A model generated the notes under the pieces. It made no database searches and had not been told where the DNA came from. It was given only the letters and a program-made list of their open reading frames with translations. Shown here in pieces: positions 31,674-36,884 of a DNA stretch of 64,000 nucleotides. The position numbers were made by a program, and so were the translations under genes. Source of the stretch: Candidatus Woesearchaeota archaeon. GTDB lineage: Archaea > Nanobdellota > Nanobdellia > Woesearchaeales > JAFGPW01. The stretch covers positions 62,001 to 126,000 of the forward strand of contig JAFGPW010000008.1 of assembly GCA_016935985.1 (NCBI GenBank). The letters are read 5' to 3'. Position 1 is the first letter of the stretch. Every line of letters begins with the position of its first letter.

Positions 31674-31751
31674 CTTTGTCGCATCCAGAAAGCAAAGATT
31701 TAAATAATTAAACTACACTAATATACAAAAAGGTATATTATTGTGCTGGCG

Positions 31752-33272
31752 ATGTCGAAGAAAGCGGTCATCGGAACAGGCATCCTGATAATCTTCCTAG
31801 CCCTGCTGCTGGTCGCGGCGATCGTGGGAGGGGTCATCCTCACGATGTCCTCCTCAGTCCAGGAATCGACGCTCAGGACCGGCAGGGACGCCCAGCAGGA
31901 GGTGGGCACCCATGTCCGCGTGGTGGAGATCGTCGGCCGCGGGCAGGGCACCGGCGAGATCGACGACCTGCAGGCGATGGTCAAGCTCGAGTCCGGCTCG
32001 CAAGCGGTCGGGCTCTCGAGCACGCTCATCACCGAGACCACCGTGAACACGACGAACGTGCTCCATCTCAAGGAGAACGCGGCATGCAAGCGCGACGTCT
32101 TCCTCGGCTACTTCTCCGCGCGCGGGACGCCCCAGGAGCTCAAGACCGACCCCTTCCCCGATCCGGTCGACGTCTGGCCGTTCAGCTCATACCAGACGAG
32201 CGCGATGCTCCTCGGGAAGGTCGCGATCGCGATCGTCTTCCTTGAGAGCAACGGAACCGTCGATCCCAACTATGAGAACTGGACGAACGGCGAGCAGGAC
32301 TATATCGTCGCGGACACGCTCGAGGCGATGAATTGGTACGCCAGGCTCGAGCCCCGGGCCGGCCTGCAGTACACCTTCGACATCTATGAGGTGGAGACGA
32401 GCTATGAGCCGGTGACCCGCAACAACAGCCAGGCGAACCAGAGCCTCTGGATATCAGAGGCCCTCGACCAGATCGGCGCGCCGTCGGGCCCATCCCTGTT
32501 CGCGCGCGAGCGCGACTTCCTCAACATCCTGCGCATGCGCATGAACGCGCACTGGGCGTTCATCATGTACGTCGTCGACTCGAGCGAGACCGTCGGCCAG
32601 TTCGACGGCGGTCCGCCGGGCTACGCCTACCTCAACGGCCCGCACACGGTGATCGCGAGCGATGGGTATCCGGGCGCGATGCCGGCGCTCATCGCGCATG
32701 AGTTCGGCCATATCTTCGGCGCGAACGACGAGTACGAGTCATCAGGCTGTGCCTGCACCGACACCGCCGGTTACTTCAATATCGAGACCCAGAACTGCGA
32801 CAGCCCTCCTGCCGGCTGCTTCACCAATATATCGAGCCTGATGCGTGGTGGGATCATTGGTTATTACACTGACGCGCTCGACTACTTCGCGCGCGCCCAG
32901 ATGGGTCTCATCGACACGAACGGCAACGACATCCTCGACCCGGTCGACATACTCTTCGAGAGCCCTTCGGGCGTGAACGTCAGCCAGACGAGGATCAACC
33001 TCCTCTCGAACACGCAGTACGAATACACCGTCAGCGCGGACCGGATCGGCTTCTTCTCCGCTGAGTTCGAGCGCTCGGTCGACAACCCGGTCGACAACGT
33101 GCTCCAGCGCGGCGACTTCATGAAGGTCTGCCACGAGCTGGGCAGGCCGGTGGGCGAGGACGAGGAGATACGCCTGAACATCGTCCCCAAGGTCGGGACG
33201 ACGACGATCACCGAGTTCCTCACCCCCCAGGTCATCGCGAGGGAGCGGGAGTACGTCTACCCGGTAAAATGA
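31752..33272 (+). CDS. Metzincin-like secreted protease with archaellin-type N-terminus
   Basis: The N-terminus MSKKAVIGTGILIIFLALLL with VAAIVGGVIL matches the class III (prepilin/archaellin) signal and hydrophobic helix. Cleavage by an FlaK/PibD-like peptidase after KK is expected. Residues about 316-326 hold HEFGHIFGAND, an HExxHxxGxxD zinc site as in metzincins of the snapalysin type, followed by a Met-turn candidate (SLMRGG near 360). Several Cys pairs (CACTD, NCDSPPAGC) suggest disulfides. A GTG at 31743 is an alternative start. The ATG of the downstream lipoprotein gene overlaps the stop. Role unknown; protease activity is inferred. Confidence 0.82.
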   Translation: MSKKAVIGTGILIIFLALLLVAAIVGGVILTMSSSVQESTLRTGRDAQQEVGTHVRVVEIVGRGQGTGEIDDLQAMVKLESGSQAVGLSSTLITETTVNTTNVLHLKENAACKRDVFLGYFSARGTPQELKTDPFPDPVDVWPFSSYQTSAMLLGKVAIAIVFLESNGTVDPNYENWTNGEQDYIVADTLEAMNWYARLEPRAGLQYTFDIYEVETSYEPVTRNNSQANQSLWISEALDQIGAPSGPSLFARERDFLNILRMRMNAHWAFIMYVVDSSETVGQFDGGPPGYAYLNGPHTVIASDGYPGAMPALIAHEFGHIFGANDEYESSGCACTDTAGYFNIETQNCDSPPAGCFTNISSLMRGGIIGYYTDALDYFARAQMGLIDTNGNDILDPVDILFESPSGVNVSQTRINLLSNTQYEYTVSADRIGFFSAEFERSVDNPVDNVLQRGDFMKVCHELGRPVGEDEEIRLNIVPKVGTTTITEFLTPQVIAREREYVYPVK

Positions 33273-33712
33273 GATCCTATGCGTGGCCCTATGCTGTGGT
33301 GTGCATATCCTTGATTCTGCTCGCGGGCTGCGGCGGGGAGAAATCCGCGACTCCCGACGCGCCGCGGCCGGTGACCTGCCCCGACGGCAGGCTCGTCCCG
33401 TTCGAGCGCATGTGCGAGATCGGCGATGAAGCGGCAGAGCCAGAGATCACACCGCCGCCGGATGCTCCGGTGATGGAGGAAGTGATCCCAGTGTACAAGG
33501 CGGACGTCGCCGTCCAGACCGAGGCGGATGCGCGGCAGGCGTTCGAGTCGTGGGCGGCAGCGAGCCGGAACGGCTATACCTACGAGTCTGCCGAGCCGCA
33601 GGAGGATGGGTCATACGAGGTGGTCTACCGCTACTACGACCATGGCGGCGGCAGGCATTTTGTCGTCGTGCGGCCTGATGGGACCGTGCAGCAGGAGTTC
33701 CAGCTTGCCTGA
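33269..33712 (+). CDS. Lipoprotein partner of the metzincin-like gene
   Basis: The ATG overlaps the previous stop (ATGA), so translation is coupled. The signal ISLILLAGCGG has a clear lipobox (LAGC). The mature 128-residue protein has a Pro/acidic linker and a C-terminal beta-rich domain (about 95-147) with YRYYDHGGGRHFVVVRPDG. No named family is recognised. Its coupling suggests it acts with the protease at the cell surface. Confidence 0.78.
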   Translation: MRSYAWPYAVVCISLILLAGCGGEKSATPDAPRPVTCPDGRLVPFERMCEIGDEAAEPEITPPPDAPVMEEVIPVYKADVAVQTEADARQAFESWAAASRNGYTYESAEPQEDGSYEVVYRYYDHGGGRHFVVVRPDGTVQQEFQLA

Positions 33713-33722
33713 GCAGCCGAGT

Positions 33723-35207
33723 TCAGAAGCCATAGATGGCACCGTACTTCTCGGTGAGATACCTGATGTAGGCGTCGGGGTCGAGGCCGCTTCCGGTCGC
33801 CTTCCTGATGACCTCGTCGGCGAGCATGGTCTTGCCCTTGCTGTGCACCTGCCGCCTGAGCCATGCGGTGATGGGTCTGAGGCTCCGTGTCCTGATCCTC
33901 CGCCTGAGGTCCGGCATCTCCGAATCGAGCGTCGCGAAGATCTGGCTCGCATAGATGCTGCCGATGAGGTAAGTCGGGAAGTAGCCGATCGCCCCCATCG
34001 ACCAGTGCACGTCCTGGAGGATGCCCTCGTTGTCGGTCTTCGGCGTGATGCCGAACATCTCCTTGGAGAGCCGGTTCCATTCCTTCGGCGCGGCGTCGAC
34101 ACTGAGCTTCCCTGACATCAGCCGTCGCTCGATCTCGAACCTGAGGATGATATGGAGCCCATAGGTCACCTCGTCGGCCTCCACCCGGATGAAGGAGGGC
34201 CGCACCTGGTTGATGCCGCGGTAGAGCGTCTCCATCGACACCTTCCTACCCCTCATGCGTCGTGCGAACTGGGGATAGAACCCTTGCCAGAAGACCCTGC
34301 TCCTGCCCACCATGTTCTCCCAGAACCGGGACTGCGACTCGTGCAGCCCGAGCGACGGCGTGTCGAAGACCGCGGTGTCGGCGAACCGGCGTGGCAGGTT
34401 GAGCTCGTAGAGAGCGTGTCCCGCCTCGTGGATGCCGGCGAGCAGCGCCTCCTTCGGGTCGTTGTAGCGTGTGGTATAGCGGACGTCGTCCTTGCCGAGA
34501 CGGATGGTGAACGGGTGCGCCGAGACCGCCATCACGTGCCGGTCGTCGGGGATCCCCATCGCGCGCGCGAGCTCCCGCACCAACGCCTCCTGGTCCTCCT
34601 TCCTCATGACCGTGCGGAACGCCTTCTGGCGCCGGTACTGCGGCGTCGCCATGATCCTCGTGAGGAGCGCGGCGATCTCGGTGCGCATCCTCGCGAAGAG
34701 CGGCTCGAGCCGCGCCTCGGTCATGCCTTCTTCGAAGACGTCGAGCATCGCGTCGTACGGCCGCATCTTCGGCCTGGTGTACCGGGCGTACCGCTTGGTG
34801 ATTCCGATGACCCGCTTCAGCATCGGCCTGTAGATGCCGAAATCGTCCGCCTTCCGCGCCTCCTGCCACGTCGCCGAGGCGAGCACCATCGTCCTGACCA
34901 TCTCCTGGTTGAACGCCTTCGGCACCCTCCTCGCCCTCTCGACATCCTTATGGAGCTCGCGGAGGACATGCGCGTCCTTCTCTCTCAGCCGCCGTGCTGC
35001 CTTCAGGCGCCTGAGCGCTTTCCAGAGGCGGTCGTCGGTCATGAGGTCATGGATGCGGTCGTGGATGAGCCGGGCCTGCTCGGCGCGGTCCTCAATCGCC
35101 TTCGGTGGCATCTGGGTCTTCTCGTCCCAGTCGAGGAGCGCGGAGACGCCGTGCAGGAGCGCGAGCTCGCGTTGGGTGCGGTAGATGATATCGAGGTCGG
35201 TCGTCAT
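33723..35207 (-). CDS. M32 metallocarboxypeptidase (carboxypeptidase Taq)
   Basis: The 494 aa protein carries the M32 motifs HPF, DVRYTTRY (DxRxT), HEAGH (zinc HExxH) and SLGLHESQSRFWE. It also has the second-shell signatures IRVEADEVTYGLHI and GILQDVHWSMG. The family removes C-terminal residues from peptides with a Zn/Co site and acts in the cytoplasm. TATA TTTATATAG (35233-35242) lies 30 nt upstream. It is convergent with the lipoprotein gene and stand-alone. Confidence 0.95.
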   Translation of the reverse strand: MTTDLDIIYRTQRELALLHGVSALLDWDEKTQMPPKAIEDRAEQARLIHDRIHDLMTDDRLWKALRRLKAARRLREKDAHVLRELHKDVERARRVPKAFNQEMVRTMVLASATWQEARKADDFGIYRPMLKRVIGITKRYARYTRPKMRPYDAMLDVFEEGMTEARLEPLFARMRTEIAALLTRIMATPQYRRQKAFRTVMRKEDQEALVRELARAMGIPDDRHVMAVSAHPFTIRLGKDDVRYTTRYNDPKEALLAGIHEAGHALYELNLPRRFADTAVFDTPSLGLHESQSRFWENMVGRSRVFWQGFYPQFARRMRGRKVSMETLYRGINQVRPSFIRVEADEVTYGLHIILRFEIERRLMSGKLSVDAAPKEWNRLSKEMFGITPKTDNEGILQDVHWSMGAIGYFPTYLIGSIYASQIFATLDSEMPDLRRRIRTRSLRPITAWLRRQVHSKGKTMLADEVIRKATGSGLDPDAYIRYLTEKYGAIYGF

Positions 35208-35303: not shown

Positions 35304-35510
35304 ATGAAAGGAACGGTGAAGTGGTACAATCCCGCGAAGGGCTATGGCTTCATAGTCGGAGACGACAAGAAAGAGTATTTCGTCCACCACAGCCAGCTGC
35401 CCGAGGGAGCGGTGCCTCAGCAGGATGAGAGCGTCACCTTCGAGACGAAAGAGACCGAGAAGGGGCTCCAGGCTGCAAGCGTCGTTCTTTCTTCACGAAC
35501 CAAGGAGTGA
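35304..35510 (+). CDS. cspA: Cold-shock domain protein
   Basis: The 68 aa protein is a single cold-shock domain: MKGTVKWYNPAKGYGFI contains RNP1 (KGYGFI), and YFVHHSQLP contains RNP2 (VHHSQL). CSD proteins bind single-stranded RNA and DNA and melt RNA structure. The DEAD-box helicase gene begins 18 nt later, so the two probably form a cold-response RNA-remodelling operon. It is unusual for archaea to have CspA, which is typical of bacteria and some archaea. Confidence 0.93.
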   Translation: MKGTVKWYNPAKGYGFIVGDDKKEYFVHHSQLPEGAVPQQDESVTFETKETEKGLQAASVVLSSRTKE

Positions 35511-35528: not shown

Positions 35529-36884
35529 GTGAGTACTATGAGTTTCGACCATCTCGGCATGAGTGAGCCTCTTCTGAGAGCGATCAAGGAAGCGGGCTTC
35601 ACCGAACCAAGCACCATCCAGAAGAAAGCTATCCCCCTCATCACGCAGGGAAGGGACATCGTGGCCGGATCCGCCACCGGCAGCGGAAAGACGCTCGCCT
35701 TCGGCGCCGGCATCATCGACCACATCGAGCGCGGCAGGGGCATCCAGGCCCTCATCATGACCCCGACGCGCGAGCTCGCGGAGCAGAACGCCAAAGAGCT
35801 CGACCGCTTCAGCGTGCACGCGCCGATGAAGACGGTGCTCGTCTTCGGCGGGGTGTCCATCAACCCGCAGATCCAGCACCTGCCGACAGCGGACGTCGTC
35901 GTCGGCACCCCCGGAAGGCTCCTTGACCACCTCATGCGCGGCACCATCGACCTCTCGAAGGTGAAGGTCCTCGTGCTCGACGAGGCGGACCGCATGCTCG
36001 ACATGGGCTTCATCGACGACGTCAAGAAGATCATCAGCCAGTGCGGGAAGGACCGGCAGACCATGCTCTTCTCCGCCACCATATTCGACGAGATCACCGA
36101 GATCGCGCGCGAGTACATGCGCGACCCGGTGCAAGTCCACGGCGAGCCGATGGTGGACCCCGCGAAGCTGCGCCAGGTCTACTACGACGTTCTCGAGAAC
36201 GAGCGCTTCTCGCTGCTCGTCCACCTGCTCCAGCACGAGTCCGCGAACCTCGTCATGGTGTTCTGCAACAGCCGGCAGAACGTCGACTTCGTGGTGACGA
36301 ACCTCCAGCGGAACGGCATCGAGGCGCAGGCGATCCACGGCGGATTCTCGCAGGACAAGCGCAGCAAGGCGCTCGAGACCTTCCACGGCGGCAAGACCCA
36401 GGTCCTCGTCGCGACCGACGTCGCGGCGCGCGGCCTCGACATCAAGGGCGTCACCCACATCTACAACTATGACATCCCGGACGAGGACAAGCTCTACATC
36501 CACCGTATCGGCAGGACCGCGCGCGCCGGGGAGGAGGGCATCGCGGTCAACATCCTCTCGCCGAAAGACCACGACAACTTCTACCGGATCCTGCGCTACC
36601 GTGGGATCGAGATCGAGAAGGCCCCAAAGCCGGACTTCAGGAAGGTCATGGTCCGCAGGGTCTACCTCGAGCACGACGTGCCGCGCAGGGACGGTGGATT
36701 CGGCGCACGGCGCGGCGGTTTCGGAGGGCGGTCCGGAGGGTTTCGCGGAGAACGCAGGGGCCCTCCGCGCGACCGCGGCAGCGGCGGCGGTTTCAGGGAC
36801 GGTCCGCGGCGCGGCGGCGGTTTCGGCCAGCGTCGTGGAGGTTTCGGCGGCAGGGGCGGCGGCCGTCCGCCGAGACGGAACTAG
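35529..36884 (+). CDS. DEAD-box RNA helicase with RGG-rich tail
   Basis: The protein has the DEAD-box order Q motif (FTEPSTIQKKAIP), AxxGSGKT (ATGSGKT), PTREL, VGTPGR, DEAD (VLDEADRMLD), SAT (FSATIF), ARGLDIK and HRIGRTARAG. The last 75 residues are RGG/FGG-rich (RRGGFGGRSGGFRGERRG), an RNA-binding tail. It probably unwinds structured RNA or aids ribosome assembly, together with CspA. A GTG at 35529 or an ATG at 35538 may be the start. A palindrome GGACGATCGTCC (35516-35527) lies just before it. Confidence 0.93.
   Translation: MSTMSFDHLGMSEPLLRAIKEAGFTEPSTIQKKAIPLITQGRDIVAGSATGSGKTLAFGAGIIDHIERGRGIQALIMTPTRELAEQNAKELDRFSVHAPMKTVLVFGGVSINPQIQHLPTADVVVGTPGRLLDHLMRGTIDLSKVKVLVLDEADRMLDMGFIDDVKKIISQCGKDRQTMLFSATIFDEITEIAREYMRDPVQVHGEPMVDPAKLRQVYYDVLENERFSLLVHLLQHESANLVMVFCNSRQNVDFVVTNLQRNGIEAQAIHGGFSQDKRSKALETFHGGKTQVLVATDVAARGLDIKGVTHIYNYDIPDEDKLYIHRIGRTARAGEEGIAVNILSPKDHDNFYRILRYRGIEIEKAPKPDFRKVMVRRVYLEHDVPRRDGGFGARRGGFGGRSGGFRGERRGPPRDRGSGGGFRDGPRRGGGFGQRRGGFGGRGGGRPPRRN

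Follow-up and report, generated by a model that had tools for sequence, protein, structure and literature searches.

A putative proteolytic archaellin with a metzincin-type insert and a coupled lipoprotein in Woesearchaeota

Within a stretch of 64,000 nucleotides from a Candidatus Woesearchaeota archaeon, a member of DPANN (here called the window), we identified a gene for a 506-residue protein in which, judged from sequence comparison, a protease sits inside a whole archaellin with both ends kept (Table 1). The protein is probably a proteolytic archaellin, most likely a minor subunit, that exposes its protease on the filament, with a lipoprotein as its membrane-anchored partner. We also think it fairly likely that archaea independently evolved proteolytic swimming filaments, that is, that the archaellum of some Woesearchaeota carries an active metzincin, with a co-made lipoprotein, in convergence with the flagellinolysin of bacteria, and that it may act on the surfaces of partner cells or prey.

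Table 1. Features of the putative proteolytic archaellin gene and its surroundings (positions in the window)
Feature	Position	Strand	Basis or remark
TTTAAATA, element resembling an archaeal TATA box, some 53 bp before the start codon, within a 76% AT stretch	31699–31706	+	predicted function
Putative proteolytic archaellin, 506 aa	31752–33272	+	ATG at 31752, stop codon ends at 33272
Predicted class III (prepilin-type) leader MSKKA, predicted cut after A5 (+1 V, +3 G)	31752–31766	+	KKA / K[AG]xxGxG context as in other archaellins
Archaellin N-terminal part, residues 1–123: hydrophobic helix of the filament core, then the first outer strands	31752–32120	+	PF01917; z = 30 against own archaellin
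Linker, residues 124–142	32121–32177	+	least conserved part, 26% identity to orthologue
Inserted metzincin-type protease domain, residues 143–404	32178–32963	+	profile, alignment, fold search
Zinc site HEFGHIFGAND (HExxHxxGxxD), residues 316–326, H316/E317/H320/D326	32697–32729	+	H, E, H, D invariant in 8 of 8 members
Four cysteines, C333, C335, C349, C356	32748–32819	+	common to archaeal members (alignment); putative disulfides
Met-turn SLMR, M364	32835–32846	+	S and M invariant in 8 of 8
DTNGNDILDPVD, acidic segment resembling a calcium loop, at the protease domain's end	32913–32948	+	D396, D399 invariant; putative calcium binding
Archaellin C-terminal part, residues 405–506	32964–33269	+	51% identity to own archaellin over 428–504; z = 40
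Small lipoprotein, 147 aa, lipobox LLAGC	33269–33712	+	ATGA overlap with archaellin stop codon; orthologue in same place

The preliminary description had placed an open reading frame at 31752–33272, which was confirmed (the GTG at 31743 offers an alternative start), and had read its product as an archaellin-like signal fused to a protease. The N-terminus is indeed archaellin: Pfam PF01917 matched with E = 3.7e-19 (70 bits against a cut-off of 29.5; best stretch residues 8–117), and solved archaellins matched it down to 6e-12. However, there is more than a signal, as residues 405–506 are archaellin too. In a genome scan PF01917 matched the protein in two stretches, the N-terminus corresponding to profile positions 3–104 and the C-terminus to 81–162, and the genome's own archaellin at C9:9814-10740 matched residues 2–120 (35% identity) and 428–504 (51% identity). 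While both ends scored against this archaellin as given in Table 1 (z over shuffled sequence), residues 143–404 had no similarity to it (z = -1.2, below the shuffled mean). Because both ends match archaellin and residues 143–404 do not, the protein is best described as an archaellin with a 262-residue insert and not as a bare signal fusion. Pfam's bacterial flagellin had no match in the 506-residue protein, the ends of which are PF01917, and defence-system models did not match either. The host's ordinary archaellins have about 306–318 residues and contain no HExxH; when the relatives' archaellins that fit the signal pattern were scanned for HExxH, it was present only in the orthologue described below. 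Two archaellins of relatives, L029:7246-8606 (-) and L030:3868-5151 (-), are unusually long (about 420–450 residues) and also lack HExxH.

Known archaellins are cut after a G at -1 and have a G at +3. The protein described here begins with MSKKA-VIGTGILIIF, and the leader cut is predicted to fall after A5, so that the predicted -1 residue is A instead of the G of classical archaellins; A is also found in the host's other archaellins. The leader regions of other archaellins in the host genome and its relatives read KKAEMGVGTLIVF and KKAIMGIGTLIIF, and that of the orthologue reads KHKGEMGIGTLIVF. The AT-richness upstream of the gene is equalled in only about 0.03% of 85-base segments of this GC-rich sequence, and a TATA-like element (TTTATATA) is present upstream of the orthologue as well.

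The insert carries the hallmarks of metzincins, HExxHxxGxx(H/D) and a Met-turn, in H316, E317, H320, G323, D326 and M364. Besides the zinc-site residues and M364, S362, Y328 and two late Asp are invariant in eight relatives, and H, E, H, D and M remained invariant in a four-row alignment to which L061, from a viral contig, was added. The snapalysin-type HExxHxxGxxD protease of the preliminary description was supported, both by the motif at residues 316–326 and by a profile of the insert family, whose best matches among solved structures were two snapalysin sequences (E = 0.003), followed more weakly by snake-venom metzincins. The family gave weak Pfam matches to reprolysin-like, M7, M6 and M64 models, none of which exceeded the cut-off on the insert of the 506-residue protein itself; PF02031 (snapalysin, M7) matched weakly in four of the eight relatives, and no match to it was reported for the 506-residue protein. 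An AlphaFold2 model of the domain, built from four sequences, was of low confidence (pLDDT 52, pTM 0.59), and a Foldseek search with it returned nearly exclusively metzincins, adamalysins first, at TM of about 0.3–0.5. The whole-protein model (three sequences, pLDDT 33) was kept out of the fold search. The resemblance is therefore to snapalysin in sequence and, weakly, to metzincins in the modelled fold, which supports a metzincin fold provisionally.

The protease domain is also present in proteins that lack archaellin. Further members of the class have it (L046-L050, 33–41% identity), usually as part of a larger protein whose N-terminus is of secretion type, and so do a Planctomycetales bacterium (L045) and an IMG/VR contig (L061), where the N-terminus is planctomycete-like. 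In the alignment, the borders of the standalone domain fit those of the insert. The domain, which occurs alone in proteins that are not archaellins, is thus modular. A transfer of it between bacteria and archaea is possible. L061 is the only relative found in viral contigs and looks like a secreted protein of Planctomycetes type, not an archaellin; phage and plasmid collections contained no match to the domain. In L045:4917-6647 and L061:3830-5233, both secreted proteins of this type, the G of HExxHxxG is replaced (HETAHMFWGMDEY, HETGHMFFALDEY). Other genomes of the order contain zinc proteases (HExxH...DEY) behind short hydrophobic N-termini, at L040:1279-2268 (-), L042:1249-2730 (-) and L041:1363-2484 (-), the last of them M64-like; two of the three have RKG-type pilin-like leaders. 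Proteases with pilin leaders may be more widespread in this group.

Homologues with the same fusion were sought, and one was found in WJKR01000049.1 of 'Candidatus Woesearchaeota archaeon Bin_423' (L044), which belongs to another family of the order. This orthologue is 45% identical over its whole length and has the same architecture and gene pair, which excludes chance as an explanation. The protease is the best conserved part (52% identity), followed by the archaellin N-terminal (39%) and C-terminal (36%) parts. The fusion was found in these two genomes only, among 353 genomes of the order and samples of the class and the phylum; a scan of genome contigs with the 506-residue protein as sole query gave no match. 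The L044 genome has its own ArlI (722 bits). In a congener that lacks the protease, no ArlI exceeded the cut-off, though archaellin-like proteins are present.

A search of the host genome for archaellin and pilin assembly genes was likewise successful. The contig that contains the window (L027) encodes ArlF/G-like, ArlH, ArlI and ArlJ proteins and two archaellins; contig C6 contains an archaellin followed by ArlC (FlaC), and contig C8 a prepilin peptidase. ArlH and ArlI scored over the cut-off, while ArlJ and the ArlF/G-like proteins were below the NCBIfam cut-off but clear. In total, the genome has three ordinary archaellins. Upstream of the third, on contig C6, an open frame of about 2,680 codons reaches the edge of its stretch (L028:1-8054 (-)). 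The gene of the putative proteolytic archaellin, some 82 kb away from the archaellum operon, has its own promoter-like sequence, and its regulation and assembly may therefore differ from those of the operon.

The lipoprotein gene had been described as coupled to the protease gene, and this held: its start codon overlaps the archaellin stop codon (AAAATGAG, bases common to TGA and ATG), and the arrangement is kept in L044. The lipoprotein of the host and that of L044 are related (33% identity, E = 1e-8). A profile built from both matched at full length only in the host and L044 among the 353 genomes of the order, eight others giving weak partial matches; this strict co-occurrence suggests that lipoprotein and protease share a function. 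No known family and no solved relative matched the lipoprotein. A PepSY-type inhibitor, suspected from its sequence pattern, was not supported, as neither the lipoproteins nor the genome gave a PepSY match. The gene pair is adjoined by an M32 carboxypeptidase gene (33723–35207, -), which was not seen beside the orthologue. Further along the window, a DEAD-box helicase gene with a Gly/Arg-rich RGG/FGG tail (35529–36884, +) adjoins a cold-shock-domain gene (35304–35510).

Taken by analogy with other archaellins, the N-terminal helix would take the protein into the membrane, where prepilin peptidase would remove the short MSKKA leader. The ArlI/ArlJ machinery would then add it, probably as a minor subunit, to the filament alongside ordinary archaellins; its helix would pack into the core, and the beta-domain of the archaellin would lie on the surface. 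Inserted in a surface segment of this beta-domain, the protease would point outwards and might cut proteins that touch the filament. The co-translated lipoprotein would be a membrane-anchored partner and, as a guess, an inhibitor or folding helper that guards the cell surface before export. A filament protease might bring nutrient gain or help in passing through biofilms, or it might act on a partner cell.

Alternatively, the protein could be a cell-surface protease outside the swimming filament, for which the archaellin helix is only a membrane anchor, or which forms a short pilus-like stub. Its solitary gene with a promoter-like sequence of its own, away from the archaellum operon, would fit such a role, as would the pilin-like leaders on other metalloproteases of relatives (L040, L042). 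Nevertheless, we regard it as unlikely: an anchor would have no use for the entire C-terminal part of archaellin, which is kept here at 51% identity to a filament archaellin of the host, and an archaellum motor is likewise encoded in the genome of the orthologue. Since the archaellin is complete at both ends, incorporation into the filament is favoured over mere membrane anchoring.

The outer domain could also be a pseudoenzyme, a protease-derived structural domain that no longer cuts and serves in binding or filament bundling. Archaellin outer domains vary widely, and the insert belongs to a protease domain family without known activity. Yet the protease is the part that changed least between the two genomes (52% against 36–39%), and neither H, E, H, D nor the Met-turn varies between Planctomycetales and the host archaeon, which makes the loss of activity improbable. 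That the fusion is a chimera of assembly or a contamination is hardly credible, although the metagenome-assembled genome consists of 10 contigs and is incomplete (92%); it is contradicted by the same architecture and gene pair in an independent assembly from another family, and the archaellin parts have their matches in archaellins of the same 136-kb contig.

An active protease on the archaellum would mean that an enzyme-bearing swimming filament arose at least twice, from an unrelated filament and with another type of protease, and that the archaellum gains an enzymatic role. Many DPANN archaea are thought to live on other cells, and a proteolytic archaellin would suggest a concrete tool with which they attack or feed on their neighbours. 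Archaellin and lipoprotein form a two-gene unit, small enough for tests in model archaea.

Like ordinary archaellins (PF01917), the protein has a leader of prepilin type, a core helix and a beta region towards its C-terminus, but it differs from them by about 262 extra residues with the protease. The insert shares HExxHxxGxxD, with Asp as third ligand, with snapalysin (M7; the small neutral protease of Streptomyces, 1c7k, 4hx3), which is, however, only about 132 residues long against 262 here, and the match between them is local and weak (E = 0.003). Reprolysin/adamalysin-like metzincins (M12B) resemble the insert in the Foldseek matches and in weak Pfam matches around the zinc helix, but the insert's third ligand is Asp, not His, and no match exceeded the Pfam cut-off. 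We found no proteolytic archaellin in open-access papers, and in the open-access literature found, enzymes on swimming filaments are described for bacterial flagella only. The nearest counterpart is flagellinolysin, a bacterial flagellin whose proteolytic activity in flagella has been demonstrated (PMC5595980, PMC7643111), in papers that make no mention of archaea. In both, a zinc metalloprotease, here a predicted one, interrupts the exposed central region of a subunit of the swimming filament, and the two filament-forming ends are kept. However, archaellin and bacterial flagellin are not homologous (PMC7018530), and they differ in export and assembly. Flagellinolysin carries a gluzincin, kin to clostridial collagenase (M9-like), in which the distal ligand is Glu, in contrast to the HExxHxxGxxD site with Asp and Met-turn described here. 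Since the two filament proteins are unrelated and their proteases of different types, so that the plan alone is common to both, convergence is the natural explanation of the likeness.
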